NCBI GenBank assembly: GCA_946807835.1
Contig: OX327706.1
Coordinates: 24,417,001 to 24,481,000 of the forward strand
Length of the DNA stretch: 64,000 nucleotides
Origin: Ailanthus altissimus
Lineage: Eukaryota; Streptophyta; Magnoliopsida; Sapindales; Simaroubaceae
Reading direction: 5' to 3'
How positions within the stretch are numbered: the stretch's first letter is position 1; the number at the start of each line of letters is the position of its first letter. Shown here in pieces: positions 18,311-53,836 of the stretch. Under the pieces are notes generated by a model. That model was not told the origin of the DNA, did not search any database, and worked only from the letters and a program-made list of their open reading frames with translations. Position numbers and translations under genes: made by a program.

Positions 18311-18985
18311 TACTCCATATCACTTGTAACCAAAAAAATTATTAAAATAATATTTAATTAATTAAAAAAAATTATGTAAATTCACAAGGCGCACGCGAGG
18401 CGGGAAATAACATTACCCGCCTAGCGCACGAGTATCAGTCGCGCGACCCTGTCTTGCGTGTTCTTATGCGAGGCGCAGAATAAAGTCGCACGCAATGCCC
18501 AATGCGATCAGCCATGGATGTAGTTGGGTCGCCCAGTGACCTTGCAGCACAGGACCACCCGTGAGGTTCTCCATTGCGCCTCCCAAGGATTTATGGTTTC
18601 CTCGTCATTCTTTTGTCGAATTTAACAATTTTTTTGCCTTTTTTTTAAAATTGTTTATGGCCGTTTTCAATCAAATCTACTTATTCTCAACTCATAGTAC
18701 CCAAATCTACTTTTATTTTCTTATTTCTTACGAAAATACCAATATAAAAAAAAAAGTTTAAAAAGTACTTTTCTCTAAATTTTAAATCTTAAATATTATT
18801 TTTGGGTGTCAAATTTTTTAAAATTACAACACAAACACTTGATTTATTATTTTTGAAGATAAAATTTGAATAATTTAAAAAAAAAATAGTGATTTAAAAG
18901 TGTCGAGAGAATTTGAAGGAAATATAGTCTAAAAATATTTTTTATGGTTAATAAAATTTAAGTTTTAATTTGTTAACTATAAAAA
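18311..18985. other. Intergenic sequence with a short GC-rich island
   Basis: At 18385-18560 a GC-rich stretch stands out from the AT-rich surroundings. It contains a GCGGG/CCCGC inverted repeat around 18400-18420 and several GCGCACG-type repeats. No coding sequence is recognised. The remainder is AT-rich and featureless up to the start of the copia element. Confidence 0.4.
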
Positions 18986-21790: not shown

Positions 21791-22675
21791 ATGGCGGCAA
21801 AATACGAAGTTGAGAAGTTCAATGGAGGTAATTTTACATTGTGGAAAATGAAAATAAAGGCGATTTTAAGGAAAAACAAGTGCTTAAAATCAATTGATGA
21901 AAGACCCGCTGGTATCACTGATGATATCAAGTGGAATGAGATTGACAGTAATGCAATTGCTGATTTGCATCTAGTACTTGCTGATAATGTGTTATCCAGT
22001 GTGGCGGAAAAGAAGACAGCAAATGAGATCTGGGATACTCTCATAAAATTGTATGAGGTCAAATCTTTGCATAACAAGATCTTCTTAAAAAGGAGATTGT
22101 ATACTCTTCGAATGGTAGAATCCACTTCAGTGATAGAGCACATCAACACGTTAAATACTCTATTTTTCCAACTCACTTCCTTGGGGTATAAAATAGAGGT
22201 AGGTGAATGTGCGGAGATTTTACTTCAAAGCCTACCAGATTCGTATGATCAACTCATCATCAATTTAACGAATAATATCCTAACGGACTTCTTAGTCTTC
22301 GATGATGTTACAGCTGCTGTGCTGGGAGAAGAACGAAGACGGAAAAATAAAGAAGACAAACAGGAATGTTCGCAGCAAATAGAAGCTTTGACAATGATGA
22401 GAGGTAGATCAACAGAACGTGGCCCCAGTGGGAGTCAAAATCATGGTAGACCAAAATCAAGAAATAAGAAGAACGTCAAGTGCTACCATTGTGGCAAGAA
22501 AGACCATTTGAAGAAGGATTGCTGGGGATTGAAGAAAAATGTAGAGGACAAACCGCAAGGGAATATTGCAAGCACCTCAGATGATGGTGAAATTTTATAC
22601 AGCGAGGCAGCAACAGTTGTTGAAAGCAGAAAACGGTTCTCTGATGTATGGCTCATAGATTCTGGAGCTACATAG
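21791..22675 (+). pseudogene. Copia gag with start of protease
   Basis: An open frame of 294 codons begins MAAKYEVEKFNGGNF, the standard start of copia gag (UBN2-type), with a W-x-x-K-M-K block. A CCHC zinc knuckle CYHCGKKDHLKKDC lies at about residues 231-244. It runs into the protease, whose DSGAT active-site motif is at the very end. A TAG at 22673 stops it right after the active site, where relatives have a Trp codon, and a frame change follows near 22720-22740. Gag itself is uninterrupted, so capsid protein could in principle be made, but protease cannot. Confidence 0.75.
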
Positions 22676-24160
22676 CACATGACCTCTAAGAGAGAATGAT
22701 TCCATCAATATGAACCTACCTCTGGATGATCTGTATATATGGGAATGATCATGCTTTGGAAATCGCTAGAATAAGATCCATCAAGATAAAGATGTACGAT
22801 GGTACTATTCGTATTATCCAGGAGGTGCGACATGTGAAAGGCCTCAAGAAGAATCTTTTGTCATTGGAGCAATTAGATAACACTTGGTGTAAGACCCAAA
22901 TTGAAAATGGGACAATGAAAATTCTCAAAGGCGCGCTTGTAGTAATGAAGGCAGAAAAGGTTGCTGCAAATTTGTACATGCTTAATAAAGAAACACTGCA
23001 GGAAGGAGATGCATCTGTTGTATCAACTAGTTTAGCAGAAGAGTCAACAATAATGTGGCATCGCAAACTGGGCCATATGTCAGAACGAGGTTTGAAAATT
23101 CTCTCTGATCAACCTGGGCTCAAATTGGTTTATTTACCTTTCTGTGAGCACTGTGTCACAAGTAAGCAGCACGGATTAAAGTTCAACACATCCAGTTCTA
23201 GAAGTAAAGAAATTCTAGAATTGGTCCACTCTGATGTTTGGCAAACACCGGTGATGTCCTTAGGGGGAGCGAGATATTTTGTATCATTCATAGATGATTA
23301 CTCCAGGAGATGTTGGGTGTATCCAATCAAGAAGAAGTCATATGTGTTTGAAGCTTTCAGAATATTTAGAGCGCGGGTAGAACTTGAATCAAAAAAGAAG
23401 ATCAAGTGTTTAAGGACATATAATGGTAAGGATTTTATTGCATTCTGTCAACAAGAAGGCATTAAGTAGCAATTCAGCACAGATTACACGCCTCAGTAGA
23501 ATGGAGTAGCAGAGCGGATGAACTGAACCTTGTTGGATAGAACAAGAGCTATGTTAAGAATTGCAGGTTTAGCCAAGACATTTTGGGCTGAAGCAGTCAA
23601 AATCGCTTGTTATGTGGTAAATCGGTCACCATCAACAGCAATCGAGTTGAAGATACCGATGGAGATGTGGATTGGGAAATCATTTGATTATTCTCGCCTT
23701 CATACATGTAGAAGTCCTGTATACGTGATGTATAATCCCCAATAAACAACGAAACTGGATCCAAAATCCAGAAAATGCCTTTTCTTGGGATATGCTGATG
23801 GAGTCAAGGGGTATTGTATGTGCGATCCCACTACCCATAAGGTCGTCATCAGCAGAGATGTGATATTTGCAGAAGATAAACTGTAAAGGAATGATAAAGA
23901 TGATAGCACAGTGAAGGAAAATTTAGAGACTACAACGGTACAAATGGAAAATAATCAAGTACAAGAAGATTCAGATTCTTCTGAAGTAGCACCAGAGCAT
24001 AAAGAACAAGAACTAGTAGAGTCTGAGGCTACAGATGATCGTCGATCAACTCGTGAGAGACGACCACCATCATGGAACTCGGAGTATGTTATGGAGGCTC
24101 ATTGCATACTGCCTTCTAACAGAGGATGGAGAGCCAACAAATTTCCAAGAGGCTTCTAAA
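22676..24160 (+). pseudogene. Copia protease remainder and integrase pseudogene
   Basis: Frames 22726-23469 and 23470-23910 carry the pre-integrase zinc finger (HRKLGH, then CEHC, near 23060-23150) and the integrase core with its Asp residues in HSDVW (near 23228) and FIDDYSRRC (near 23290). The third acidic residue is in GVAERM after two stops (23467 and about 23497). Further stops occur at about 23521, 23743 and 23884. Most look like CAG/CAA/CGA to TAG/TAA/TGA or TGG to TAG transitions, the kind produced by decay of methylated cytosine. Confidence 0.75.
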
Positions 24161-24983
24161 AGTCAAGATGTTTCTCTATGGATGACAGCAATGCAAGAAG
24201 AGATTGAAGCCTTGCATAAGAATAAAACATGGGAGCTGATTGCACTACCACATGGAATAAAAGTCATTGGAAACAAATGGGTCTATAAGATCAAACGAGA
24301 TGACAATGACCAAGTGGAGTGGTATCATGCGAGATTGGTGGTGAAAGGTTATGCTCAGAAAGAAAGTATTGACTTTAATGAGATATTTTCTCCTGTGGTT
24401 CGACTCACGAAAGTCAGAATAGTCTTGGCAATATGTGCTACATTTGACTTACATCTAGAGCAGCTAGATGTAAAGACAGCTTTTTTTCATGGAGAACTTG
24501 AAGAAAAAATTTATATGCTCCAACCAGAAGGTTTTAAAGAAGAAGGAAAAGAGAACTTGATTTGTAGGTTGAACAAATCTCTGTACGGTCTCAAACAGGC
24601 GCTGAGGTATTGGTACAAGAGATTTGATTCTTATATCATCAGCCTTGGATACAACAGACTTAGTTCAGACTATTGTACATACTACAAAAGGTTTGAAGAT
24701 GATAATAATTTCATTATTTTACTGTTGTACGTAGATGACATGTTGATGACAGGCCCCAACAAAGATCGAGTCCAAGAATTGAAGGCACAGTTGGCTAGGG
24801 AATTTAATATGAAGGACTTGGGACCAGCAAACAAGATTCTAGGGATACAAATTCACCGAGACAGATATAACATGAAGATTTGGCTTTATCAGAAGAATTA
24901 CTTAAAGAAAATCTTGTGGCGCTTCAACATGTAAGATTGTAAGCCAATTAGTACTCACTCCCTGTTAATTTCAAGTTATCCTC
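24035..24983 (+). pseudogene. Copia reverse transcriptase, interrupted by element D
   Basis: An open stretch of 299 codons (24035-24934) has the copia reverse transcriptase blocks in order: WMTAMQEEIEAL, TWELIALP, KWVYKIKRD, RLVVKGYAQ, VRLTKVRIVLA, QLDVKTAFFHGEL, SLYGLKQALR and the catalytic LLYVDDMLMTG (24722-24754). The two catalytic Asp residues are intact. A stop after LWRFNM (24932-24934) truncates it, and element D interrupts the gene at 24984. The rest continues at 42782. Confidence 0.8.
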
Positions 24984-26447
24984 TGTAATACACGTGTTGT
25001 ATATATATAAAGTTTAGTGGCAAAAAAAAAAAAAAAAAAAAAAGAAAAGAGGAGAAATTAAAGCGGTGGGTTTGTTGTATATATATATATATGTTCTGTT
25101 TTGCTTCGTTGAAAAGAAGCAACCGAAACCGAGAAAAGAAGAAGCAAAAGCCGGAAGGGAAAAGAGAAAAAAGAGAGAAAAGAAAGAAAAGAAAGAAAGG
25201 AAAAAGAAAAAGAAAGGGAAAGGAAGAAAAAAAAAATAAAAAAGAAGAGAGAAACTGAGAAGAAAAAAGAAGAAAAAGAGAAAGAAAAAGAAAAAGAAAA
25301 AGAAGGAAAAGAAAAGAAAAAGAAAGAAAATAGGAAATTTTAGGAAATTAGTTGGGTAGTCAGAATTATACCCAGTGGTTTAGCGAGTAATAGTTTTACG
25401 ATATTAGAATATTTAGATTTTAATATTTATAATACATATCGGTACTAATGATGTATTTTTACACCCTATGATATAGGTGGTGTGCCGATAGTGAGTAGAT
25501 CTCATAATCCAGACCCAGTTCAGGATTAGCGCACTTTTGTGAGTGGATAACTATATATATTTTATATATTTTTAATACAGCCAATTATGATTTAATTACG
25601 CGTTATCAGATTTAGTTATGATTTATTTTAGACAGAAAAATATTTATACTATTTAGTATATTTAGAAATGTTTTAGAATTTATTATAATACAGTTTATAA
25701 TTATGTTCAGTACAGAAATAATTATTTCAGAATAATTATGGTCACAATATTATATTATAGTAGTTTTTGAACCACCATATGCGTACCCTCCCCTTTAATG
25801 TAGTTGCTCTGCGCATGCGTTAAACCAGTTTAGTTTGCTCTGCCCAAACGATGCACCATTCCGCCGGGTTAGACCAGCTTAGATCCCCCGCTCTGCCTGT
25901 GCGTGAGTTACTCCGCCAGGTTAGACCAGATTTTCCCCGGGTACAAGTTTGGTGTGGTTTTCAGTATATATATATATATAGTACATGTTTCCAGAGCTAT
26001 GTTACGTATATTCAGCACAGATTTTATGACAGTTCATACTTTCAGTACAAGTTTATTGATTACTCAGTATACAGTTTTATGATTATTTTATCATACAGAT
26101 TTATACGTGTACAATACATATAAAGTTTATGATATTTTCAGATTATGTTCACTCACTGAGCCACAAGCTCACCATTTTTCCTATTTTTCCTATTTTTCCC
26201 AGGTTGTCACAGGAATTTGTGCGGTGTGATACAGTCATCACATTTTGAGGTTAGCCAACGTGCATAGCTACATAAGAGTTTTAGTCTGTGTATTTGTATA
26301 TGTTTTGTATAGTGGAGTATATGTGTACACTTTTTGTTGAGGCAGGTAGCCTCATTGTATTATATGTATGAGTAAAGAGTATGTTAGTCACATGTCATCT
26401 CAGGATCTGCCTCGATTCTCGAAGAGGGCTCGGGTTGGGTCCTGTCA
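24984..26447 (+). repeat. 5' LTR of element D
   Basis: 1464 bp, TGTAATACACG to GGGTCCTGTCA. It includes a long purine tract of GAAA/GAAAA units (about 25022-25336) and short TA repeats near 25078 and 25967. It matches the 3' LTR (31405-32018 plus 41954-42781) nearly base for base outside the purine tract, where length differs. ORFs in it are shared with the other LTR and are not genes. Confidence 0.88.
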
Positions 26448-26450
26448 GTT

Positions 26451-26462
26451 TGGTATCAGAGC
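26451..26462 (+). other. Primer binding site of element D
   Basis: TGGTATCAGAGC, an exact tRNA-Met-type primer site, starts three bases after the 5' LTR. Confidence 0.88.
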
Positions 26463-26549
26463 ATGGTTGTTAGATTCTGTAGACTAGTACATGATACATG
26501 CATATTAGAGATGTCATTAATGAATTGTTGCATTTTATAGATTTTCATT

Positions 26550-27950
26550 ATGCGTTCACGTGGCCGACCTCGCACGAAACTTGTGGCTGAACTGGGAGCT
26601 CCTTTAGTATCAGATAGAAGGGAGGAATCTATTAGAGAGGAAGTAGCTGAGTCAGTTCCCCCTGTACCCATACCTCAAACTTAGCCTGATCCTATTGTAG
26701 AGGAGATGCACCCTCAGCCAATACCACAACCTGTGACACAGCCTACACAGGGACAGCCTGATAGACCTGCTTTAGAGCAATCCATAGATAGACTGGCTCA
26801 ATTAGTTACAGTTGCAGTAGAGAGACAAACACAGGGACCACCCAAGAGAGAGAATACAATAGAGCGTGTTCGTAGTTTGGGGGCAGAGAATTTTTCAGGC
26901 ACTACAGAGCCAGCTGATGCAGAGTCATGGTTGACTAGAGTAGAACGGATATTTGATGTTATGAGATGTACTGATGACGAGAGGGTTTCCTTTGCTACAT
27001 TTTTACTTGAAGGTGGGGCATACCACTGGTGGAGATCAGTATCACGTAGATATGGAGGGGTGATTAGTTGGGCTGATTTTTGTAAAGAATTTAATGTCAA
27101 ATTCTTTCCTATGGTTTACCAAGACATCCAAGCTAGTAAGTTCTTTGAGCTAGAACAGGGATTGATGACAGTAGAGGAGTACGAGAACCGTTTTATAGAG
27201 TTATCAAGGTTCGCTTCTTATGCAATACAGAATGAGAGGGATAAATGTAAGAGGTTTGAACAGGGCCTTAGAGGCAATATCAGGACAACAATTACAGCTA
27301 TGGGGCACATTGATTTCAGTGAGTTGGTAGGGGCTGCAATGAGAGTTGAGAGAAGCCTAGTAGAGGCACATAGAGCCCAGTCATTCAAGCAGAGACCAGG
27401 CCATAGTTGGTCAGTTGGTGGATCAAGTAGCAGTAGAGCATCTGGAGGAGAGATATCCCATGCAAGGTATTCTGGTAGACAACAGTATGGTCAGAGCCCT
27501 ATGCTATCAGGAGGACAGAGACAGAGTTCTAGTCAGAGTATATTGCCTCTATCTGTTGGAAGCAACATAGGGAGTCAGAGGCCCCAAGGTGGTAGCCAGT
27601 TAAGTAGTAGTGCAAGCATAAGAAGGTACCCTCAGTGTTCCATGTGTGGGAGGAGTCATGAGGGACAGTGTCTGAGAGGTTTTAGAGGTTGCTACCATTG
27701 CGGACAAGCTGGACATTTGAGGAGAGATTGCCCTCATCTTCTTCAGAGTAGCAACTTAGTACAGAGTACAGCTTCTCAGGGTTTTCAAGGTGGCAGTGGC
27801 AATATTCAGAGACCTGGAGGATCTCAGACAGGAGAGCCTATCTCTAGTACTGATGTACAACCTGGAGCTTTAGGAGTTAGTAGAGATCCACAGAGGGGTC
27901 AACCAGGTCGACCTCGTAGCCAGGCACGTGTATTTGCTTTAACTCAGTAA
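26550..27950 (+). pseudogene. Gag of element D
   Basis: The frame starts at ATG 26550 (MRSRGRPR), has one stop at 26682-26684 (TAG, probably from CAG), and then runs open to 27947. The main part has the plant gypsy gag core (AESWLTRVERIFDVM, YHWWRSV, EFNVKFFP, MTVEEYENRF) at about residues 75-215 counted from 26706. A Ser/Gln-rich linker and a CCHC knuckle CYHCGQAGHLRRDC follow at about 329-342. The TAA at 27948, probably from CAA, cuts gag from pol; relatives of this lineage have one continuous polyprotein. The ATG at 26706 could give a 414-residue capsid protein. Confidence 0.8.
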
Positions 27951-30900
27951 GAGGCACAAGCTACCCCAGATGTTGTTACAGGTATGCTGACTATTTTTGG
28001 CTGAGAGGCCTATATTTTAATTGATCCGGGCTCTACGCATTCTTTTATTTCCCTTATCTTTGCTGTGCATGCGGATGAAATGTTAAAACCCCTAGATTGT
28101 AATTTGGTGGTAGCCACACCGGTTAGAGAATCATTATTGGTTGAGAATGTATTTCGGGGTTGTGTTATCAAAGTGGGTAGTAGTGAGATGGTAGCAGATT
28201 TAATTCCTCTTGCTATACATGATTTTGATGCAATACTTGGGATGGATTAGTTAGCTAATCACCATGCTACTATAGACTGTTTCCGAAAAAAGGTTATATT
28301 CAGAAGACATAGAGAGCCTGATATTATTTTTTGTGGAGAGCGACGAGTTCTTCCATCCTGTGTTATATCTGCTATAACGGTTAAACGGTTGCTCAGAAAA
28401 CAATGTCCAGCTTATTTGGCACATGTTATTGATACCAGAGTCAGTGGGGCTAAATTAGAAGATATTTCGGTGGTCAGAGATTTTTCAGATGTATTTCCTG
28501 AAGATCTTCCAGGCTTACCACCAGATAGAGAGATTGATTTTGGTATTGATTTGGTTCCAGACACAACTCCTATCTCCAAAGCACCATACAGAATGGCCCC
28601 CTCAGAGTTAAAAGAATGAAGACTCAGTTACAAGAATTGGTAGATAAGGGTTTCATCAGACCTAGTGTATCACCATGGGGAGCACCAATATTGTTTGTTA
28701 AAAAGAAGGATGGAACTTTGAGACTATGTATTGATTATCGGGAGTTTAATAAAGTCACTATACGCAACAAGTATCCACTCCCTCACATTGATGATTTATT
28801 TGATCAGTTACAGGGTGCAAAGATTTTCTCAAAGATCGATCTACGATCAAGGTATCATCAGTTAAAGATCAGAGATACTGATGTGGCTAAGACTGCTTTC
28901 AGAACTCGATATGGGCATTATGAGTTTTTAGTAATGCCATTTGGGTTAACTAATGCTCCAGCTGCATTCATGGACCTTATGAATAGGGTATTCGTCCCTA
29001 TCTTGATCGATTTGTTATAGTTTTTATTGATGATATTCTTGTGTATTCACGGAGTACAGAGAAGCATGTAGAGCATTTGAAGATAGTGCTACAGATTTTG
29101 AGAAATAAACAGTTATATGCCAAGTTCAGCAAATGTCAGTTTTGGCTAGATAAAGTTGCATTTCTCGGCCATGTGATCTCAGCAGATGGAATTTATATGG
29201 ATCCTCAGAAAATTGAAGCTGTAGTAAATTGGGAGCAACCAGCTAGTGTGACAGAAATTAAAAGTTTTCTCGGTCTAGCAGGTTATTATCGAAGATTTGT
29301 TAAAGACTTTTCTAAAATTGCTGCACCAATTACAAAGTTGACCAGAAAAAATGTAAAGTTTGTGTGGACTGATGAATGTGAAGATAGCTTCCAAGAGCTT
29401 AAAAAGAGATTGACTTCAACTCCTGTTCTCACTCTTCCATCTGGAACTGAAGGATTTATAATTTACAGTGATGCTTCTAGACAGGGGTTAGGTTGTGTGT
29501 TGATACAGCATGGTAAGGTGATAGCTTATGCTTCTAGGCAGCTTAAGAAGCATGAGTTGAATTATCCAACTCATGATTTAGAATTAGCAGCAGTAGTATT
29601 CGCCTTGAAGATTTGGAAACATTATCTATATGGTGTTACATGTCAAATCTTCACTGATCACAAAAGTTTGAAGTATTTGTTCACACAGAAAGATTTGAAT
29701 CTGAGACAATGGAGATGGTTAGAGTTAATAAAAAATTATGACTGTACGATTGACTATCATCCAGGTAAGGCGAATGTGGTAGCAGATGCACTCAGCAGGA
29801 AGTCTTCTAGCTCTATTGCTTATTTGAGAGTGACTTATCTTCCATTGTTAGTTGAATTAAGATCTATGGGGGTTGAATTATCTGTAGCCAAATCTGGAGT
29901 CCTTCTAGCACATTTTCAAGTTAGGCCTATGTTGATTGATCAGATTCGAGAGATACAAGATCAGGATCCTAATTTAGTTAAACTTAAGCAAGAAGTAAAG
30001 AATGGAATGCGAACTGATTTAACATTGAAAGCTGATGGGACATTAGTTATGGGTAACAGGCTTTGTGTTCCGAATAACTCAGAGTTAAAGAAGCAGATTT
30101 TAGAAGAGGCTCACAGCTCAGCTTATGCTATGCATCCTGGTAGCACTAAAATGTATCGTACTCTGAGAGAACATTACTGGTGGCAAGGTATGAAAAGAGA
30201 GATTGTAGAGTTTGTATCTCACTGCCTGATTTGTCAGCAGGTTAAGGCAGAACATCAGAGGCCAGCAGGATTATCTCAACCACTTCCAGTTCCTGAATGG
30301 AAGTGGGAACATATCACCATGGACTTTGTTGTTGGGCTTCCTCGAACTCAAAGGGGTCATGATAGTGTTTGGGTGATTGTTGATCGACTCACAAAGTCTG
30401 CTCATTTCCTGCCTTATAAGATTTCATACTCATTAGATAGGCTAGCTAATTTGTATGTGAGTGAGATTGTACGGTTACATGGGGCTCCAGTGTCCATCAT
30501 ATCAGATAGACACCCTCGATTCACTTCTAGATTCTGGCATAGCTTACAGAAGGCCTTAGGCACTAAGCTAAACTTTAGTACAGCTTTTCATCCTCAGACA
30601 GATGGGCAGTCGGAGAGAACTATACAGATTTTAGAGGATATGCTCAGAGCTTGTATGTTGCAGCTTAAGGGTAATTGGGATGATTATTTACCATTGATGG
30701 AGTTTGCATATAATAATAGTTATCAGTCTAGCATTCAGATGGCGCCGTATGAGGCTTTATACGGAAGAAAATGCAGAACTCTGATTTGTTGGGATGAAGT
30801 TGGAGAAAGAAAATTGTTGGGTCCAGAGATTATTCAAGCCACTAGTGAGAAGATCAGTATTATCAGAGACAGACTCAAGGCAGCTCAAGATAGACAGAAG

Positions 30901-31392
30901 AGTTATGCAGATAAACGCTGTAGACAGCTAGAGTTTGCAGTAGGAGACAGAGTCTTTTTACGGATCTCACCATGGAAGGGTGTGCTTCGTTTTGGGAAAC
31001 AGGGAAAACTAAGTCCTAGATATATTGGGCCATATGAGATTCTAGAAAGGGTTGGTGTGGTTGCGTACCGCTTAGCATTACCACCTGAGTTGTCACGCAT
31101 TCATGATGTATTTCATGTTTCTATGTTGCGGAAGTATATACCTGACCCTTCTCACATTCTAGATACTCGGCCAGTTCAGTTGAGGACAGACTTGACTTAT
31201 GATGAGGAACCTGTTCAGATAATGGATTATCGCCAACAAGTACTACGTAATAAGACTATACCACTAATTAAAGTCCTATGGAGGAATCATGCAGTGGAAG
31301 AGGCTACATGGGAGCGAGAGGATCATATGAGAGTTCAGTATCCTCATTTGTTTCAGAGAGATATACGAATTTCGAGGACGAAATTTTTATAA
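27951..31392 (+). pseudogene. Pol of element D: protease, reverse transcriptase, RNase H, integrase, chromodomain
   Basis: The protease region (LIDPGSTHSFIS near 28017) has in-frame stops at 28002 (TGA) and 28248 (TAG). One-base deletions near 28616 and about 28990 shift the frame within reverse transcriptase. The [22 protein letters not shown] and IDDILVYS blocks are otherwise intact, with both catalytic Asp. The final open frame 29041-31392 holds the end of reverse transcriptase, RNase H ([13 protein letters not shown]), the integrase zinc finger ([14 protein letters not shown], then CLICQQ), the catalytic residues in TMDF, SDRHPRF and QSERT, and a C-terminal chromodomain-like segment ([15 protein letters not shown]). 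The lesions make the polyprotein inactive. Confidence 0.85.
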
Positions 31393-31404
31393 GGGGGGAG
31401 GAAT
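31391..31404 (+). other. Polypurine tract of element D
   Basis: AAGGGGGGAGGAAT lies directly before the TG of the 3' LTR and overlaps the last base pair of the pol stop codon. Confidence 0.85.
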
Positions 31405-32023
31405 TGTAATACACGTGTTGTATATATATAAAGTTTAGTGGCAAAAAAAAAAAAAAAAAAAAGAGGAGAAATTGAAGCGGTGGGTTTGTTGTATATATAT
31501 ATATATGTTCTGTTTTGCTTCGTTGAAAAGAAGCAACCGAAACCGAGAGAAGAAGAAGCAAAAGCCGGAAGGGAAAAGAGAAAAAAGAGAGAAAAGAAAG
31601 AAAGGGAAAAGAAAAAGAAAGGGAAAGGAAGAAAAAAAAATAGAAAATAAGAGAGAAACCAAGAAGAAAGAAGAAGAAAAAGAGAAAGAGAAAGAAAAAG
31701 AAAAAGAAGGAAAAGAAAAGAAAAAGAAAGAAAATAGGAAATTTTAGGAAATTAGTTGGGTAGTCAGAATTATACCCAGTAGTTTAGCGAGTAATAGTTT
31801 TACGATATTAGAATATTTAGATTTTAATATTTATAATACATATCGGTACTAATGATGTATTTTTACACCCTATGATATAGGAGGTGTGCCGATAGCGAGT
31901 AGATCTCAGAATCCAGACCCAGCTTAGGATTAGCGCACTTTTGTGAGTGGATAACTATATATATTTTATATGTTTTTAATACAGCCAATTATGATTTAAT
32001 TACGCGTTATCAGATTTAGTTAT

Positions 32024-33579
32024 TGTTTACGCTCAAAATATAACGCGGCTATCGCAGTATAGATTGAGGTGTCGATCCCACGAGGAAGCTCTTGGCAAAA
32101 TAGGTTAGTGAAGTAAAATATTAAAGCAGTAGCAAAGGGTTAATTGATTTAAACGGATGAGATAGAATTGTCTATGAATTGAGGAAAATGTCTTATGATG
32201 ATTTAAGCAAGGCTTTGAGAATCACAATTATGCTTTATAAATCTACTCTATACTTTGATTCGATATTTATAACTCAACTGAAAGTTTCACATCCCAAACA
32301 ATCAATCGGAAGGTATGTAATATATAGCACATTTGATAACACATGTATTTGATTTAGTTAAACTCTTTGCAAGCATTAACACACATCATGTTATTTATAC
32401 AAGTTATCTAAGATCGACAATATATCATTTTGACAATATTGCAGTAAAAGATTAACTTGAATATCAAACATTTATTGCCCTTACATGTTATCTAAGATCG
32501 ACAATATATCAAATTGACAATACTGCAGTAAAAGATTAACATATAAAACAATGTAACCAGTAACAATTATAAATCAACATGAATCACATAAGAAAAGCAT
32601 GACTGAACATATATGAGACATGAGAATTATAACCTCTGGATTATAGAAAATAAAATAGATAAGAGTTTAATCAAAACCAAACTTACAACATTTATAGCTT
32701 TTGACACCGAATCAAAGCATGGAAGTAGATTTACTACACATAAAAGTTCATCTCTTAGCCTTGCTAGGAACTCTAGCCTAAATTACAATACATATTAATG
32801 AGAATAAAAGAAGAGAGAAATTTTTCTATTAAAAACGTCCTAAGGGTCTCCTTATATAGGCAATGAATGGACATATGTCATGGATGACATCAATCTTCAA
32901 TAATTTTAAGCCAATAACTCGTGTATCCACTTGCAGCACATTTTTGATAATGTAAATGATCAATTCAGCTTCTGCAGCCGACATGAAAGTTGTAGAATTT
33001 TGACTCTTCTTTCCATAGGCACTGATTTCATGCAAATTGGATGAGTATCCAATGAGATATGAGCAAAATTCCAAAGATACATCAGAATTCGGCCAACAAC
33101 CATTTTACCCACTTGCAATGCGATTTGGTCCATGATAACGGCTGATTTGGACTTTACCATAAACATACGAGTTGTTGATAGTAAAGTCAGTAATTCACAG
33201 CTTCAAGAATTATACCAATTGAGTACGTATTTTGTGAGATACGATCCAAATACGTGAATTGGGTCAAGCTGGGCAAGAGTTGTAGTCCGATTCTGTTGTA
33301 TCTCAATTTTTGGCCCATAACATGTTGGATTTGAATTTTCCACTATTCTTCAAATTTGTGTAAGATTGAGTCATGTTGCACCAGGTTCAAGAATTTCTTC
33401 ATTTCGATTTCTACATTGAGAGTTATGTCCAGTTTACCTAAACCTGTCCAAATAACATTCATTAATCACAATTTAAGGAGAACACTTTATTTCAAGCTAA
33501 AAATACAGAAAACACTAAAATTAGTGACATTAAATGGTGATTGAATCTCTTAACAACATGCATTTTCATGTGTTCATCA
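32024..33579 (-). repeat. 3' LTR of element E
   Basis: 1556 bp, identical in length to the LTR at 40393-41948. The visible differences are G versus A near 32046/40415 and A versus G near 33243/41612. The small ORFs in it (for example 32829-33074 and 33356-33544) recur in the other LTR and show no known domain. A minus-strand TATATAA box is at 32852-32858. Confidence 0.92.
32403..32540. repeat. Direct repeat, 84-bp period, within the LTR of element E
   Basis: A roughly 54-bp block beginning GTTATCTAAGATCGACAATA occurs at 32403 and again at 32487, with a 30-bp spacer. Both copies end in GCAGTAAAAGATTAAC. The same pair is present in the other LTR at 40772 and 40856. Such doublets in the U3 part of an LTR can act as enhancer repeats, but this is inference. 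Confidence 0.8.
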
Positions 33580-33592
33580 CAGCCCCCAACCA
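33580..33592 (-). other. Polypurine tract of element E
   Basis: On the minus strand GGTTGGGGGCTG directly precedes the TG start of the 3' LTR. It is the position and composition expected of the plus-strand primer. Confidence 0.7.
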
Positions 33593-34935: not shown

Positions 34936-35583
34936 TTACAAACGGAGTGTCAGATCCAATTTTCGCTTGTTAAGGCCCACTGACCAATCGATCCGAGTTA
35001 TTGCTGGGTCAGGTTCATAGGTAACTGTCTGTAATTTGTTAATCAATTCATCCGCCTCAGTAGCAGAAACCAGGATCTGTCGCGCCGAATGTGAAATAAA
35101 ATTCTGTTCCACAGCTTGATCAAGAAAACAAAGTAAGCAATCAAAATAGTTATTAACATTCAACAAACCTATGGGTTTTCGGTGGATATTCAGTTGGGCC
35201 CAAGAGACAATTTGAAAAATTTCTTCCAAGGTACCAAAACCACCTGGTAAAGCAATAAAAGCGTCTGCATTGCAAAGCATTCTGGCTATACGTTCATGGA
35301 TGGATGAGACTTGTAATTCTTCCCCTATTGTTTTCCCGGTCAGGTTTCCCACGGCCAAAGCTGTAGGAATAATACCTAAAACTTGACTTCCTCCTAAATG
35401 TGCAGCTGTTGACACACACCCCATTAGCCCAAGGCTATCTCCTCCATAAATCAAATGAATTTTTCTTGCAGCTAATGTTTTTCCTAGATTGTTTGCTGCT
35501 TCTACGAACACTTTACTCTCCCCAGGACTAGATCCACAAAATACACATATATTTCGAAATTGTCGAACTTGGGTTTCCTCCAT
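34936..35583 (-). CDS. LOG-like: LOG-family cytokinin riboside 5'-monophosphate phosphoribohydrolase, carried in element E
   Basis: An intact intronless frame of 215 residues from the ATG at 35583; an in-frame ATG at 35652 would add 23 residues with no family similarity. The family begins as here with ICVFCGSSPG. The nucleotide-binding loop reads YGGDSLGLMG, where most members have three Gly in a row, so one Gly is Asp. The catalytic signature PGGFGTLEE and the Arg in HERIARM upstream of it are intact, then SWAQLNIHRKPIGLLNV. The C-terminus is basic (KRKLDLTLRL). LOG enzymes release active cytokinin bases from nucleotides in the cytosol. Host LOG genes usually have several introns; their absence, the sense orientation and the position between the element's LTRs point to capture through an RNA intermediate. 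Whether it is translated as a downstream frame is unknown. Confidence 0.88.
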   Translation of the reverse strand: MEETQVRQFRNICVFCGSSPGESKVFVEAANNLGKTLAARKIHLIYGGDSLGLMGCVSTAAHLGGSQVLGIIPTALAVGNLTGKTIGEELQVSSIHERIARMLCNADAFIALPGGFGTLEEIFQIVSWAQLNIHRKPIGLLNVNNYFDCLLCFLDQAVEQNFISHSARQILVSATEADELINKLQTVTYEPDPAITRIDWSVGLNKRKLDLTLRL

Positions 35584-35898
35584 ATCTACTCTCACCTTTA
35601 TCTCAATATATGAAAATGAAGAAACTGAGGTGCTGTATTTATAGAGTGCCAAATGATAACAATGATTATGGTAACCCGACAGTTTGTCAAAAGAGAGTTA
35701 AAAATAAAACACAAAAATTTAAACATAATGACCCACATGCATTATTGAACAAAAAGATTTGAATTTAAGACATCTACATGAGTAGCCCTACTATTCATAA
35801 AATAAAGGTTGAAATTAAAACACATGTATTTACAAGTAGTTGTGATTGTGGCTCACATCTTCCTCTGGTTTTACGTCCAGTAACGGCTTAAACGCCCT

Positions 35899-36447
35899 CT
35901 ATGGGTCGGGGATAGGCTTCCCATCTAATTTTTTTATAAATTGGCAAACAGGGTCTTTTAGAGTCAGATTCCCGAGACTATACCGTTGATGTTCATTTTT
36001 GAATTTGTTCCATAAATCGAGAAGTTCACGTTGCACGAGCCCACAGGGATGCGTCTCAAGAGTCAATAGGATATCATCCAAAGACTCCTTACTCAGTCCA
36101 TCCTTAATGAACTGAATTTTGTCTTCTCGATTTCTAGATACGAATCCTAAAGAATGACAACTCCGATTACAATTCTATCGAGCACATTTATGACAGACTT
36201 GTAACCTTTTTGCTCGTCGCCTTTTGGCATAAGAGCTTCTTCCAAGACCAGGCATATGAGAAACAAAATCATTTTCAAACTCACCAAATAACCGAACCTT
36301 GGCTTCAATTAACCAACGAAGGTCCACAGGGATATTACCCAACATCAATAGCCTTAGTCTTTCACACCGTGCTTTGTAAATCTTAAGTAGAGCATTTTGA
36401 GGAAATGAAGGAAAACGTTTTTTAAGGTTGGCAAGAATGCGATCCAT
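35899..36447 (-). pseudogene. Unknown element-borne ORF with zinc-ribbon-like cysteines, one in-frame TAG
   Basis: A single frame starts at ATG 36447 (MDRILANLKKRF) and runs about 180 codons to a stop at 35899-35901, broken only by a TAG at 36175-36177. The first half is rich in Leu, Arg and Lys and likely helical. The TAG falls inside a cysteine cluster C-x2-C-x4-C-x3-C (36190-36150), where the stop itself takes one of the spacer positions. The second half (DDILLTLETHPCG, LLDLWNKF, CQFIKKLDGKPIPDP) keeps sensible amino-acid content, so the stop is recent or is read through. I do not recognise the family. It lies between the gag frame and the LOG gene, in sense orientation, and may be an accessory protein of the element or a second captured gene. 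Confidence 0.55.
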
Positions 36448-36696: not shown

Positions 36697-39639
36697 TCAA
36701 TCACAATAGACAGGATCCACAAGAGGGATCTCGCCTAGGTACATAGAGTCGTTTACCTTTTCCACGTAGCTTTTTAGCCGCTGTCCATTCACTTTGAAAG
36801 TCCGTCCATCAGTGGGGTCTTCTATTTCAACAGCACCATTAGGAAAAACATGTCTTACCATAAATGGACCAGTCCATCGAGATCTCAACTTTCCAGGGTG
36901 TAAATGCAATCGAGAATCATAAAGATAGACCCGTTGATTTGGCTCAAAGTGTTTCCTTGAGATCTGTTTATCATGAGCTACTTTCATTTTAGCTTTGTAA
37001 ATTTTGGAGTTGTCATATGCGTCATTTCGTAGCTCTTCTATTTCTGACAATTGTAACTTTCTCTGGAGACTTGCAGCACTCAAAGTTGTAAAAGAACAGT
37101 TAGAGAAATGTGTTCCTTGGTCACTAATGATGACACGTGGTGTCTCGAGTTTTGATGACTTTGGTTTCTCCTTCTCTCGTGGCAACTTTTCAATGCCTGG
37201 TTTCCAAAATCGAATCCCTTTATCCTGTGAGTCAAAAATACTAAACATATCAGTTGTTTCATTAGGATAATACAATTCTTCAATATCAAAATCAAAGAGA
37301 TTTTCTAAAGAATTAAAGCCATGATTTTTATAAGCTTCCTCCGTTCCAAGTGTGTCTATCATATATGAATGATAGCATTCGTCTTCTTCTCGTGATTGCT
37401 TATCAATTTGAAAAATGTTCACCTCAAGAGTCATATTCCCAAAAGATAATTTCATTAGACCATTTCTGCAATCAATAAGAGCATTAGCAGTGGCAAGAAA
37501 AGGTCTCCCCAAAATAAGAGGGATTTTTGACTCCATGTTAACAACAGAATGAGTATCTAAAACAAGAAAATCAACAGGGTAGTAAAATTTATCAATTTGT
37601 AACAAAACATCTTCTACTATTCCCCGTGGTTTCTTGATTGATCGGTCAGCTAATTGTAGGACTACAGATGTTGGTTTAATCTCACCAAGTCCCAACTGCA
37701 AGTAAATAGAATAAGGCATTAAATTTACACTTGCTCCTAAGTCCAATAAAGCTTGACCAAACTCATGTGTCCCAATTTGGCAGGATATTGTGGGACATCC
37801 TGGGTCTTTATACTTGGGCGGTGTCTTTTGTTCAATCACTGCACTTACCTGTTCTGCCAAAAATGCAGTTTTCTTCACATGGTGTTTTCTTTTGATAGTG
37901 CATAAATCCTTGATGACTTTGGCATAAGTTGGAACCTGCTTAATCAAATGTAACAAGGGAAGATTAATTTTAACTTGTTTCAAATGTTCCAAAATCTCAC
38001 CTTGAATTTCTGAATTTTTCCCAACCGGTCGAAGAGCTTGAGGAAAAGGCACTGGGATTGAAAACTTACTTTCGGGCTCTTTTTCCATTGTGGCCTCTTT
38101 TTCAAGGGGGGCATCTTTACTACTTGTAGATGTGTTAATTTCAGGAGTAGGCTCACTTACAATCTTACCACTTCGAGTAGTAATGGCATTGACTTCTTTG
38201 AGATTTTGAACATCAGAAGTAGAAGCTTGTGCCATGAATTGTCCTTTTGGATTGGATTGAGGTTGAGATGGAAACTTACCTCGCTCTTGTACAGTTAAGG
38301 CACTGGTCAATTTTGTGATTTGACTCTTGATTTCTTTGTTTTCGTCCACCACCTGTGCAAGAATTGTTTCAAATTTTTTATTAGTCTTACTTTGTGCCTC
38401 CATAAATGCTTGTAATGTATCCTCTAAAGAACTCCTAGTTGGTCGTGCATTATATTGAGGTGCAACATAAGACTTGGGTGCTTGTTGTTCTTGTTTCCAT
38501 TGGTTGTTGGCTTGTTGGTCAGATTTCCAACTGAAATTTGGGTGGTTTCTCCAGCTAGGATTATATGTTTCAAAGTAGGGTGAATAAGGCTTCTTGTACA
38601 TCCCTAGGGCATTACATTGTTCCTCATATATCCCTCTCATCTCACTATACGTGGGACAATCCTGAGCTAAGTGTTCCGCTCCTCCACAAACAAAACAGAC
38701 ATCGTGTGACTCAACTCTAGCAACCGTGTGGGTGACCCTTCTATCTTTGGATTTCAAGGCCTCTAACTCCCTAGTTAAGACCTCTAATTGGGCTTTGAGG
38801 TTATCCTCTTCCCTAAGATGGAAAACTCCATTGGGTCGTGACCTATTTGTGCTTTCAGCAATGCTAGGTCCAGTCCATGTATGGGCTTTTTCGGCTAAGT
38901 CATTAAGGAATTCTATGGCTTCCTTAGGATCTTTGTGAAGAAACTCCCCATTACACATCATCTCAACAAATTGGCGCTCTCTAATTGTGAGTCCCTCATA
39001 GAAATAACTAACCAAGCGCCAATTTTCATATCCATGGTGAGGGCACAGATTTAGCAATTCTTTAAACCTTTCCCATGCTTGATATAAGGTTTCACTGTCT
39101 TTTTGGGAGAATGAAGAAATTTGTCTTTTCAGGCCATTAGTTTTGTGTTGTGGGAAGTATTTATTGAAAAATGCTTGGGTCATTTCTGCCCAAGTTCCTA
39201 TAGACCTCGGCCTCAAAGAGTATAGCCAACTCTTTGCTTTGTCTTTCAAAGAAAAAGGGAAAAATTTAAGCCTAACAGTGTCTATAGCTTCAGGTTGGCT
39301 ATGGAAGGTGGCAATTACCTCTTCAAATTCCCTAACATGTACATAAGGATTTTCACTATCTAGACCATGAAAAGTGGGAAGAAGTTGTATCATTCCAGGT
39401 TTAAAATCCGAATGTGGTATGTTAGGTGAAAATATAATGCATGATGGTGTGGCTGTGCGAGTAGGATGCAAGTAATCTTTTAGAGTTCTAACGGGATTTT
39501 CTTCGTGTTGACTCATTGTGTTAGAATTACAAGATGAACTAGAAGGTGAATTCTCTTCACTTACAAATTGTGGGAGTGGTTCTAGTTCTAGTTCTAGTTC
39601 TCTCACAAATCTTCCTCGTTTGTCTCTAGGTCGATGCAT
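36697..39639 (-). CDS. Element E gag-protease frame fused to an integrase tail
   Basis: An uninterrupted frame of 980 codons. Residues 70-260 hold the Athila/Tat-type capsid domain ([43 protein letters not shown]). A single CCHC knuckle [14 protein letters not shown] is at about 315-328. A long linker precedes an aspartic-protease-like domain at about 620-760 with [15 protein letters not shown], where this lineage has DLGAS instead of D-S/T-G. About 100 residues later comes a fragment of the integrase core ([12 protein letters not shown]) and then the complete integrase C-terminal region ([35 protein letters not shown]). Reverse transcriptase, RNase H and most of the integrase core are missing, and the junction stays in frame. 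The intact frame and near-identical LTRs suggest it was expressed recently. The integrase tail without its core cannot join DNA alone. Confidence 0.85.
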
Positions 39640-40366: not shown

Positions 40367-40386
40367 CTTCCCCGGCAACGGCGCCA
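40367..40386 (-). other. Primer binding site (tRNA-Asp type) of element E
   Basis: The minus strand reads TGGCGCCGTTGCCGGGGAAG just downstream of the 5' LTR. It is the complement of the 3' end of plant tRNA-Asp, the primer used by Athila-type and related gypsy elements. Confidence 0.85.
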
Positions 40387-40392
40387 AATTTT

Positions 40393-41948
40393 TGTTTACG
40401 CTCAAAATATAACGCGACTATCGCAGTATAGATTGAGGTGTCGATCCCACGAGGAAGCTCTTGGCAAAATAGGTTAGTGAAGTAAAATATTAAAGCAGTA
40501 GCAAAGGGTTAATTGATTTAAACGGATGAGATAGAATTGTCTATGAATTGAGGAAAATGTCTTATGATGATTTAAGCAAGGCTTTGAGAATCACAATTAT
40601 GCTTTATAAATCTACTCTATACTTTGATTCGATATTTATAACTCAACTGAAAGTTTCACATCCCAAACAATCAATCGGAAGGTATGTAATATATAGCACA
40701 TTTGATAACACATGTATTTGATTTAGTTAAACTCTTTGCAAGCATTAACACACATCATGTTATTTATACAAGTTATCTAAGATCGACAATATATCATTTT
40801 GACAATATTGCAGTAAAAGATTAACTTGAATATCAAACATTTATTGCCCTTACATGTTATCTAAGATCGACAATATATCAAATTGACAATACTGCAGTAA
40901 AAGATTAACATATAAAACAATGTAACCAGTAACAATTATAAATCAACATGAATCACATAAGAAAAGCATGACTGAACATATATGAGACATGAGAATTATA
41001 ACCTCTGGATTATAGAAAATAAAATAGATAAGAGTTTAATCAAAACCAAACTTACAACATTTATAGCTTTTGACACCGAATCAAAGCATGGAAGTAGATT
41101 TACTACACATAAAAGTTCATCTCTTAGCCTTGCTAGGAACTCTAGCCTAAATTACAATACATATTAATGAGAATAAAAGAAGAGAGAAATTTTTCTATTA
41201 AAAACGTCCTAAGGGTCTCCTTATATAGGCAATGAATGGACATATGTCATGGATGACATCAATCTTCAATAATTTTAAGCCAATAACTCGTGTATCCACT
41301 TGCAGCACATTTTTGATAATGTAAATGATCAATTCAGCTTCTGCAGCCGACATGAAAGTTGTAGAATTTTGACTCTTCTTTCCATAGGCACTGATTTCAT
41401 GCAAATTGGATGAGTATCCAATGAGATATGAGCAAAATTCCAAAGATACATCAGAATTCGGCCAACAACCATTTTACCCACTTGCAATGCGATTTGGTCC
41501 ATGATAACGGCTGATTTGGACTTTACCATAAACATACGAGTTGTTGATAGTAAAGTCAGTAATTCACAGCTTCAAGAATTATACCAATTGAGTACGTATT
41601 TTGTGAGATACGGTCCAAATACGTGAATTGGGTCAAGCTGGGCAAGAGTTGTAGTCCGATTCTGTTGTATCTCAATTTTTGGCCCATAACATGTTGGATT
41701 TGAATTTTCCACTATTCTTCAAATTTGTGTAAGATTGAGTCATGTTGCACCAGGTTCAAGAATTTCTTCATTTCGATTTCTACATTGAGAGTTATGTCCA
41801 GTTTACCTAAACCTGTCCAAATAACATTCATTAATCACAATTTAAGGAGAACACTTTATTTCAAGCTAAAAATACAGAAAACACTAAAATTAGTGACATT
41901 AAATGGTGATTGAATCTCTTAACAACATGCATTTTCATGTGTTCATCA
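40393..41948 (-). repeat. 5' LTR of element E, with promoter
   Basis: 1556 bp, TGATGAACACATG to GAGCGTAAACA on the minus strand. A minus-strand TATATAA at 41221-41227 in GCCTATATAAGGAGACC is a good TATA box and would start the element's RNA near 41190, reading through leader, gag frame, the unknown ORF and the LOG gene. Confidence 0.9.
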
Positions 41949-42786
41949 GTTATGATTTATTTTAGACAGAAAAATATTTATACTATTTAGTATATTTAGA
42001 AATGTTTTAGAATTTATTATAGTACAGTTTATAATTATGTTCAGTACAGAAATAATTATTTCAGAATAATTATGGTCACAATATTATATTGTAGTAGTTT
42101 TTGAACCACCATATGCGTACCCTCCCCTTTAATGTAGTTACTCTGCGCATGCGTTAGACCAGTTTAGTTTGCTCTGCCCGAGCGATGCACCATTCTGCCG
42201 GGTTAGACCAGCTTAGATCCCCCGCTCTGCCTGTGCGTGAGTTACTCCGTCAGGTTAGACCAGATTTTCCCCGGGTACAAGTTTGGTGTGGTTTTCAGTA
42301 TATATATATATATAGTACATGTTTCCAGAGCTATGTTACGTATATTCAGCACAGATTTTATGACAGTTCATACTTTCAGTACAAGTTTATTGATTACTCA
42401 GTATACAGTTTTATGATTATTTTATTATACAGATTTATACGTGTACAATACATATAAAGTATATGATATTTTCAAATTATGTCCACTCACTGAGCCACAA
42501 GCTCACCCTTTTTCCTATTTTTTCTATTTTTCCCAGGTTGTCACAGAAATTTGTGCGGTGTGATACAGTCATCACATTTTGAGGTTGACCAACGTGCATA
42601 GCTACATAAGTGTTTTAGTCTGTGTATTTGTATATGTTTTGTATAGTGGAGCATATGTGTACACTTTTTGTTGAGGCAGGTAGCCTCATTGTATTATATG
42701 TATGAGTAAAGAGTATGTTAGTCACATGTCATCTCAGGATCTGCCTCGATTCTCGAGGAGGGCTCGGGTTGGGTCCTGTCATCCTC

Positions 42787-52084: not shown

Positions 52085-53790
52085 TGTTTTAAGGTGTATG
52101 CTTGTGATTATGTACATATTGAAAAAATTAAATACATATATCATATACACGATTCGCATTGGAATTAAGCATATAATCAACATATATATATATATAAATT
52201 AAATCATTAACAACTTAAGATTACATAAATATATATTTGAAGAATTTCGGTAAAGATTTTAATTCTAGAGCTTACCTTGAAGTGAATCCTTGTACAATAC
52301 TAGTTCACAACAATTCGGTGGGATTGTGAATCTAGTATAGCAGCTATCAAATTTCCAACAATAAGTATTTAACCTTTAAACACTTTTGTTACTTAAGAAA
52401 AGAATAGATGAATTACTTTGTTTTTTCTTTTATTTTTCTTACAACCCTTAGTTTAGAAAACAAAACTCTCATTCAAATCTTTCTTTCTTTCTTAATCTGT
52501 ATTTCACACCCTTTGAATGAATTGATAAAATGTTTTTAGTGGTTGTTACAACACCTCACATGTTCACCATCCATCATCTCACTAAGTGGCCAACATCTAA
52601 AAACATGTTACGGTGACTACCTAAAATGATCAAATTAATGCACCATTATTTAATAAATGGTGCTCCATAAAATTAGGTATATATTTTCAAAAAATAGTGA
52701 AAACATGACATGACCTCCTTCATTATATATGTCTCTCACTAATAAATTAATATTTCATTTATTTATCAAATTAATATTAATTCAATTATTCAAAAACTAT
52801 TTGAATAATTAATATTATATGATTTAATTTTACTAACATGATTAATAGGTGAATTTATGGTAAAACAATTCATGGACCAAAATTGTGCGACTTGTCACCA
52901 TCTAATTAGTTAACAACTCTTATAAACTAATTAAGTGATGCACTTAATATTAAAGTCTAGACAAGTGTACAACCTGAGAAACCTTGAAATATATTTTTAA
53001 TTTGTTGAAATTTTTAAGATAGAACTATTCGATCTAAAATGCTGCCTTGGTGCACAATAAATACACTTTATATTGTGAGACTCTCTAGGTCCACGCCCGA
53101 TTTGTCATGTGGAACTCCTCCATATGTCCGTAAATCATACCCCCCACACACATTACATATATTACAAAATGACACGTTAGACCATATAAGTTGAGATTAT
53201 AACATATCTGTATAATCCCTCCATCATTTATATCCGGGTAGAGTGGAGATATAGATCAATGCTGTCAAATCTCCATATGCCTGACCGAAAGCTGATCTCT
53301 AGAATTGTATTTTAATAAATAATATTCGCAAATACTTTTGTGATATTATTTATCCCTAAGGTTAAACTCTTTTTTCGAGAATTACTACTTATGGCCATAA
53401 GACTTTTTGAAATACAATCTTAGAGCATTAAGATATATTACTCACCCAAATAAGCTGATAGATCTCATATCTATACACACCAAACTCCATGAGTATCAGA
53501 CCATACCCAGCAACACCCAACGGTTAGACCATAAAAGATTTATGACTTGTGTGGAACTAAAGTATAATTGATCACTCACAAGTCCATCGTGGCACTTAAG
53601 TTAAAAGACCACGAATACTTTTCAACTCGAAAGGCCCTCCATTGATGGCTTTTATGGGATGTTTATTGGAGATTTTAGTGAGTTTATCAGTACTCAGCCC
53701 TTATGGAATACTTGTATTTTTATACGAGCTTCCACTACACTCATGGTTTATTAAGATTAATCATTTAGACCATTTAGGTATAGACATACA

Positions 53791-53836
<46 letters not shown>

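Follow-up and report, generated by a model that had tools for sequence, protein, structure and literature searches.

Element E in context

The window analysed here (64,000 nucleotides of an Ailanthus altissimus contig) contains an intronless reading frame of the LOG family, the enzymes that activate cytokinin, within an LTR retrotransposon that we call element E. The locus raises two questions: whether this frame belongs to the element or to the host and, if it belongs to the element, what its product does there. E is a young element on the minus strand, nested in an LTR of another element. Its features, in window coordinates and with the basis of each assignment, are as follows.

40393..41948, minus strand: 5' LTR of E, 1556 bp (differs at 2 positions from the 3' LTR)
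40369..40386, minus strand: primer-binding site (PBS) TGGCGCCGTTGCCGGGGA (position beside the 5' LTR)
36697..39639, minus strand: 980-residue frame in which gag, a weakly matching protease and the integrase C-terminus are joined in phase (Pfam)
35899..36447, minus strand: ORF2, remnant of a gene of 182 residues, broken by one stop (Pfam on the N-terminal part)
34936..35583, minus strand: LOG-derived gene, 215 codons, intronless (Pfam and PDB matches)
33583..33591, minus strand: G-rich tract adjoining the 3' LTR, a polypurine tract by position (direct reading of the sequence)
32024..33579, minus strand: 3' LTR of E, 1556 bp (LTR pair comparison)
32019..32023, no strand: left target-site duplication (TSD) GTTAT (joined flanks give the empty site)
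41949..41953, no strand: right TSD GTTAT (same 5-bp repeat as in the left flank)

The 5' to 3' order in E is LTR, PBS, gag–protease–integrase-end frame, ORF2 remnant, LOG, G-rich tract and LTR. The initial annotation had described a LOG-family frame in sense orientation between gag and the 3' LTR of an element with nearly identical LTRs, and both descriptions hold: the frame at 34936–35583 lies on the minus strand between the 36697–39639 frame and the LTR at 32024–33579, and the two LTRs differ at two positions in 1556 bp. In the 980-residue frame of the window copy Pfam matched gag, with protease below the threshold; reverse transcriptase, RNase H and most of integrase are absent. The PBS TGGCGCCGTTGCCGGGGA is presumably of the tRNA-Asp type, and tRNA-Asp is one of the primers used by non-chromoviruses.

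The flanks of E, joined with one copy of the TSD, form an uninterrupted LTR of the neighbouring element (1464 nt, 96.4%). Since the LTR of another element is restored in this way, the insertion of E was clean and includes LOG. The interrupted element is Ty3/gypsy-like (24984–32023 and 41949–42781); E splits its 3' LTR into two pieces, which match its other LTR at 95.0% and 97.6%.

Other parts of the window include a Ty1/copia-like element at 21791–24934 with several open pieces (parts of gag, integrase and reverse transcriptase by eye) and two adjacent frames at 3970–6153 that by eye resemble a host gene for a U-box/ARM-repeat ubiquitin ligase. Two collinear sets of stretches (15786–21380 and 53153–56241), 78–88% alike and about 35–37 kb apart, are perhaps an older segmental or element duplication.

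LOG as cargo of a multi-copy family

The genome (939,062,666 bases in 37 contigs) was searched for LOG copies of this kind (family 1). Out of 6310 candidates 150 loci were scored, the window included, and all 150 reach at least 96% identity; by count from the search table, 133 are without stops and 17 contain them. In each of the six loci for which parts of both LTRs were fetched, LTRs flank LOG, as they do in the window. Together with the clean empty site, these observations confirm that LOG is element cargo common to the family. They bear equally on the reading that a single intronless host LOG gene stands here with E inserted around it: nothing was found in its favour, and it is refuted by the copy number, the placement between LTRs in the six loci and the window, and the empty site.

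Twenty of the 26 top-ranked family-1 loci were fetched at 9.9 kb each. Among these 20 top-ranked rows, to which the 14:6 split applies, 14 copies carry about 2.5 kb of pol between gag and the integrase end and six have the short, window-like form from which pol is deleted. The gag-pol frame is open to the limit of the fetched stretch in 13 of the 14 long copies (at least 1596 residues). One long member, analysed with Pfam, matches gag, RVT_1, RT_RNaseH, H2C2 and rve, with Asp_protease_2 just below the cut-off, and its gag, protease, reverse transcriptase, RNase H and integrase stand in Ty3 order. No second (archaeal-type) RNase H was found in one long copy, where about 100 residues separate RNase H from the next integrase match. 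In the available text of PMC6317226 a second RNase H is a mark of Tat and absent from Athila. A Tat/Ogre placement was ruled out on this absence in one long copy; the single RNase H points to Athila rather than Tat, and by domain content the family would be a large Athila-type Ty3/gypsy family.

The pol-deleted members are L014, L018, L020, L021, L026 and L027, in addition to the window copy. The 5' edge of the deletion, taken as the end of the BLAST match, is identical in all seven, and because of this common edge the pol-less form seems to have spread. Over the stretches compared, the LTRs of the six loci differ at 0/1451, 0/1465, 3/1471, 3/1113, 0/367 and 1/844 positions, and these insertions are very young. 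LOG is open in six of the six, which was a condition of their ranking, and the 207-residue ORF2 frame is open in five. The pol-deleted copies are non-autonomous, have moved recently and have kept gag and LOG.

A second subfamily and selection on LOG

A further genome search with a fragment of AtLOG3 scored 150 of 5696 candidates. The match starts at query residue 5 in 121 of these rows, mostly with an open frame of 250 residues, and at residue 3, as in family 1, in the other 29. Six loci were fetched: all five of the residue-5 kind belong to a second retro-LOG subfamily (family 2), and L114, of the residue-3 kind, is a 97% relative of family 1. Four of the five family-2 loci end in IDLTLRL, and L113 ends early, without the tail. 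The order integrase end, ORF2 (182 residues), TATA block and LOG recurs in family 2 (1.57 kb of upstream sequence from one locus). No host LOG exons of the same genome appeared among the 150 rows scored in this search.

The LOG products of L109 (family 2) and L009 (family 1) share 66% amino-acid identity, with dN 0.235 and dS 1.86 over 215 codons (NG86). All five family-2 LOGs gave dN 0.226–0.235 and dS 1.61–1.88 against L009, and dN 0.231–0.241 and dS 1.55–1.74 against the window LOG. The resulting dN/dS between families is about 0.12–0.15, as estimated by NG86 alone with dS values (1.6–1.9) near saturation. LOG is under long-term purifying selection between the subfamilies.

Variation within family 1 was analysed in 101 LOG copies (the window, the 20 of 26 top-ranked loci and 80 lower-ranked rows picked from the 150). 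The variant ratios, from a ranking by protein score that disfavours replacement changes, are 0.62 for singletons, 0.63 for variants in two copies and 1.00 for those in 3–9 copies; variants of higher frequency comprise no replacement and three silent changes. Internal stops are present in 13 of the 101 copies, and Arg98 is His in four. Variation within family 1 is close to the neutral decay of recent copies. To the question, raised by the initial annotation, whether the LOG frame is shared and under purifying selection, the answer is that it is mostly open (133 loci without stops) and that the divergence between families shows such selection.

ORF2 and the TATA block

The second gene retained beside LOG, ORF2, matches two viral Pfam models. 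An open family-1 copy matches Viral_NABP (2.8e-8, 34.4 bits; cut-off 23) and Carla_C4 (1.2e-5, 25.7 bits; cut-off 20.9), and the N-terminal part of the window ORF2 matches Carla_C4 (4e-6, 27.1 bits) and Viral_NABP (8.2e-5, 23.1 bits). The family-2 product matches Viral_NABP (2e-7, 31.7 bits) and reaches 18.5 bits with Carla_C4, below the 20.9 cut-off. With kinship judged from these two models, ORF2 appears to resemble the cysteine-rich nucleic-acid-binding proteins of plant viruses. Viral cysteine-rich proteins are described as silencing suppressors and pathogenicity factors in the accessible portion of PMC12172455.

The 207-residue ORF2 frame is open in 18 of the 20 fetched copies; one of the remaining two has 205 residues (21 residues from the usual start) and the other has no frame. 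Between families 1 and 2, ORF2 gives dN 0.170 and dS 0.820, a ratio of about 0.21. Variants were counted in 19 of 20 sequences that end in frame (one was dropped; a twenty-first, L016, was missed by the start pattern): singletons are N14:S5 (expected 13.8:5.2) and shared variants N1:S5 (expected 4.2:1.8). This pattern, in small numbers, is as expected if old changes have been filtered and new ones have not.

A TATA block precedes LOG.

35636..35643, minus strand: TATAAATA, 60 nt upstream of the LOG start codon (97 of 97 loci with the start pattern)

The block was present before LOG in every one of the 97 family-1 loci, of 100 fetched, in which the start pattern was located, and in one family-2 locus the distance from it to the LOG start is 73 nt. 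A 13-nt block, CTCTATAAATACA, is identical in families 1 and 2 amid poorly conserved surroundings. Since TATAAATA occurs 32 times on the two strands of the 64-kb window, its presence carries little weight by itself, and its conservation is the stronger point. The block may act as an internal promoter.

Could LOG and ORF2 nevertheless be neutral passengers of amplification? Such passengers would show the near-neutral LOG variation of family 1, the ORF2 singletons close to expectation and the damage seen in the window copy. They would not be expected to show between-family dN/dS values of about 0.13 (LOG) and 0.21 (ORF2), on which LOG as neutral cargo was rejected, nor the retention of LOG, ORF2 and the TATA block in both subfamilies. 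The pol-deleted loci also speak against this reading, with LOG kept in six of six (under the ranking condition) and ORF2 in five of six, the window ORF2 being broken. We disfavour neutral carriage and consider it highly improbable.

The LOG fold and its altered pocket

The window LOG frame matches Pfam Lysine_decarbox (3.7e-38) and, in the PDB, AtLOG3 (1.4e-64) and AtLOG8 (2.4e-57); PGGFGTLEE is present, and the match to the LOG family is far beyond chance. The LOG of a close family member scores 171 against TIGR00730 (cut-off 96) and 117 against NCBIfam CtkRMPhLog, a model built for bacterial and archaeal annotation (cut-off 300). The window copy has the following features, given where it applies with the residue numbers of the Corynebacterium enzyme (CgLOG).

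35437..35439, minus strand: codon 49, GGG motif changed to GGD in the window copy (1 of 101 copies)
35290..35292, minus strand: codon 98, catalytic Arg (CgLOG Arg99), retained (alignment)
35287..35289, minus strand: codon 99, Ile replacing the pocket Lys (CgLOG Lys100) (alignment)
35221..35223, minus strand: codon 121, catalytic Glu (CgLOG Glu122), retained (alignment)
35212..35214, minus strand: codon 124, Gln replacing the prenyl-pocket Glu (CgLOG Glu125) (alignment)
34960..34968, minus strand: C-terminal basic patch KRK, a possible nuclear localisation signal (sequence)
34939..34959, minus strand: EAR-like tail LDLTLRL, directly before the stop codon (LxLxL comparison)

The frame had been called intact. 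It is open over its 215 codons; in function it is perhaps not intact, because of the GGD at residue 49 found in this one copy of 101. With its ORF2 damaged as well, the window copy is not a good candidate for activity.

As far as the available text of PMC4979012 goes, catalysis by CgLOG is proposed to depend on Arg99 and Glu122, adenine is held by Met96, Lys100 and Glu121, and the prenyl site is seemingly formed by Met96, His97, Lys100, Glu125 and Trp129. Replacement of AMP-binding residues by Ala nearly abolishes activity there, Ser19 excepted, in a text without a list of each mutant (PMC4979012).

A tree was calculated from 35 retro-LOGs and 18 host LOGs, the 'retro' label being assigned by which search returned the protein. 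It was rooted on a single bacterial row, and for this reason the order of capture relative to the host LOG groups is unsure. A branch supported at 97/95 sets the retro-LOGs apart as one group, and the host LOGs are supported at 97/93. Arg99 and Glu122 are kept in all tree rows, including 35 of 35 retro-LOGs. Lys100 survives in six of the 35 retro-LOGs and Glu125 in five of them, and the 18 host LOGs have kept both; both pocket residues are changed in 29 of the 35 retro-LOGs, and neither survives in the window family or in family 2. On the tree Glu125 changed once, Lys100 twice and the EAR tail three times.

The earliest retro branches consist of Xanthoceras/Acer-type proteins with an intact pocket (Lys100 and Glu125, intact also in P0102) and a basic tail, without LxLxL. 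A Xanthoceras protein related to these branches, P0002, is probably element-borne because part of it (PFPQAL...FKQVKVNIPL) is similar to the gag-pol frame of the window (PFPQAL...). In most other species, the assignment to elements draws on multiple similar copies and on print. Many 'hypothetical' proteins among P0018–P0120 (from Reevesia, Diplodiscus, Populus, Paulownia, Melia and others) have the retro-LOG tail and pocket residues, and some proteins of this type are annotated as cytokinin phosphoribohydrolases (LOGL10 in Populus).

Relatives of LOG were also sought outside plant genomes. In viral contigs 12 stretches matched a pattern and none encodes a relative; a plasmid search returned 170 records, all below 60% identity, and those listed are bacterial.

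The initial annotation took E to have captured a host LOG mRNA. A recent, private capture is not supported, given the separation of the retro-LOGs, as one group, from the 18 sampled host LOGs (97/95), and it was rejected also on the multi-copy family and the second subfamily. As part of the whole explanation set out below, and with the same even chances that we allow it, the LOG protein would have been taken from a LOG ancestor long ago; its nucleotide fold and catalytic Arg and Glu remain, and its prenyl pocket is altered.

The pocket also bears on whether E encodes a functional LOG enzyme that would increase active cytokinin at its sites of transcription, the benefit first suggested for it. 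Such an enzyme would have the LOG fold with PGGxGTLEE, the catalytic Arg and Glu and a TIGR00730 score well above the cut-off (that of the close family member), all of which are found, and Lys100 and Glu125 are intact in the Xanthoceras/Acer-type proteins and P0102. Most retro-LOGs, the window family and family 2 included, have nevertheless lost residues of the inferred prenyl pocket (Lys100 is replaced in 29 and Glu125 in 30 of 35), Ala at AMP-binding residues is nearly abolishing in CgLOG, and the CtkRMPhLog score of the close family member falls below the cut-off of that bacterial/archaeal model. Because these pocket residues are replaced and the GGG motif of the window LOG is GGD, a role in raising cytokinin is doubtful, and we regard it as unlikely.

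The C-terminal tail

EAR motifs take the form LxLxL or DLNxxP, and the LDLTLRL end of LOG conforms to the first of these. Within the last 12 residues LxLxL occurs in 98 of the 120 best matches to the window LOG and in none of 120 canonical LOGs, a basic patch within the last 20 residues occurs in 104 and one, respectively, and both occur together in 94 and none; the retro-type matches were ranked with the tail in the query and the canonical ones found with the tail-less AtLOG3 fragment. The canonical set is LOG1/3-like; LOG7-like proteins entered the tail-free search, and the C-terminus of AtLOG8 lay outside the comparison. In the tail-free search, LxLxL ends 47 of 55 matches with a changed pocket versus one of 59 with the pocket Glu (six of 120 were unclassed). 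Among 43 dissimilar members, conservation at ten of the final 11 positions exceeds that at every one of the preceding 25, in a comparison where the linker was aligned from the right only, which lowers its score. Between families 1 and 2, five of the seven codons of DLTLRL and the stop differ synonymously, the other two are identical and none is replaced, whereas four of the six codons before them are replaced. A strict LxLxL tail is absent from some members of the retro group (P0015, P0031, P0049, P0096 and the Xanthoceras/Acer group). Peroxisomal targeting by the last three residues was considered and dropped, since these are not known as a usual signal.

According to the text of PMC9956375 available to us, EAR motifs lie most often in the C-terminal quarter of a protein, LxLxLxL forms are described, and a C-terminal EAR mediates the binding of TPL by effectors, HaRxL21 among them. 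By analogy, the LOG tail may bind TOPLESS. The motif is short, and LxLxL could be something else. LOG might be adaptive by another route, as an altered nucleotide hydrolase in which LxLxL is an export signal or a dimer or Gag-binding tag. The conserved catalytic pair, the single change of Glu125 on the tree, which then stayed changed, and the strong purifying selection over the whole protein would all suit an altered hydrolase. The tail, which follows a basic patch, fits the mostly C-terminal LxLxLxL EAR forms in what PMC9956375 describes, and this counts against the alternative tag functions; we consider this reading possible, though rather improbable.

A possible role for the LOG–ORF2 module

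The explanation that we prefer, and to which we give even chances as a whole, is that the family carries an accessory module in which a repurposed LOG and ORF2 serve the element. The family, probably of Athila type, has two accessory genes between pol and the 3' LTR, ORF2 and the LOG-derived gene, the latter with a putative TATA block of its own. Since what was probably an old capture, LOG has changed its prenyl pocket and gained the C-terminal basic patch and the EAR-like motif. The derivative would most likely enter the nucleus and may there bind a TOPLESS-type corepressor through its EAR tail, which could shift host repression or defence in favour of the element, while ORF2 may dampen RNA silencing. 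The altered and long-conserved LOG beside a plant-virus-like protein points to a kit for manipulating the host rather than to a hormone gene that has simply become mobile. The specific combination of a virus-type cysteine-rich suppressor with a nuclear, TOPLESS-recruiting LOG derivative, kept together across subfamilies and even in pol-deleted copies, we put forward more tentatively, as a possibility that is rather less probable than its opposite.

If this reading of the module is true, it would mean that RNA viruses and LTR elements share genes and that a transposon mimics effectors. Like viruses and microbial pathogens, plant LTR retrotransposons would then have effector-like genes that target corepressors of the host and its RNA silencing, and a concrete test of whether transposons actively counter silencing would become possible. 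Many tree-genome proteins labelled 'cytokinin phosphoribohydrolases' may belong to transposons and have a changed function.

Comparison with known systems

The initial annotation knew of no described element of this kind. Two Athila-like elements similar to LOGL4 were reportedly noted by Steinbauerova et al. in 2011. A YgdH/LOG domain has been published in LTR-element consensuses of Citrus sinensis and C. clementina and, without a filter, of Populus trichocarpa (Alvarado-Marchena et al., 2022; PMC9289625), a result described in the available text as in line with Steinbauerova et al. (2011), cited there; LOG capture is therefore not new. Added here are the copy number, the second subfamily, the pol-deleted form, the separate retro-LOG clade with its pocket change, the EAR-like tail, the viral-like ORF2 and the conserved TATAAATA block. 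Our literature search, in which subscription papers were mostly out of reach, returned no EAR tail or pocket change on LOG, and no viral cysteine-rich protein or internal TATA in LTR elements.

The Citrus and Populus elements are, like E, Ty3/gypsy elements with a LOG-type extra domain; the part of PMC9289625 that was accessible makes no mention of an EAR tail, a pocket change, an ORF2 like the viral cysteine-rich proteins, a TATA block or a pol-deleted subfamily. The Populus protein P0048 falls in the retro-LOG group, and P0061, named LOGL10, is a near-copy of it. With the plant LOG enzymes (AtLOG3, AtLOG8 and the LOG7 group) the retro-LOG shares the fold, PGGxGTxxE and the catalytic Arg and Glu; it differs from them in the replaced pocket Lys and Glu, in the gained basic patch and LxLxL and in being intronless and borne by a retrotransposon.

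ORF2 resembles the carlavirus-type cysteine-rich nucleic-acid-binding proteins in its basic stretch followed by a cysteine motif, with Pfam scores above the cut-off in family 1. Unlike them, it has a C-terminal part outside the Pfam matches and is encoded by a retrotransposon. The orchid Gypsy elements with an ORF for an AlkB-type RNA demethylase, as far as PMC9289625 describes them in the text available, have likewise acquired an enzyme and kept it conserved, although the enzyme and the lineage (Tat/Ogre) are different. Finally, no homology is claimed between the retro-LOG and effectors of the HaRxL21 type, and the putative binding of TOPLESS is by analogy; what the two have in common, on the available account in PMC9956375, is a C-terminal EAR-like motif on a protein foreign to the host.
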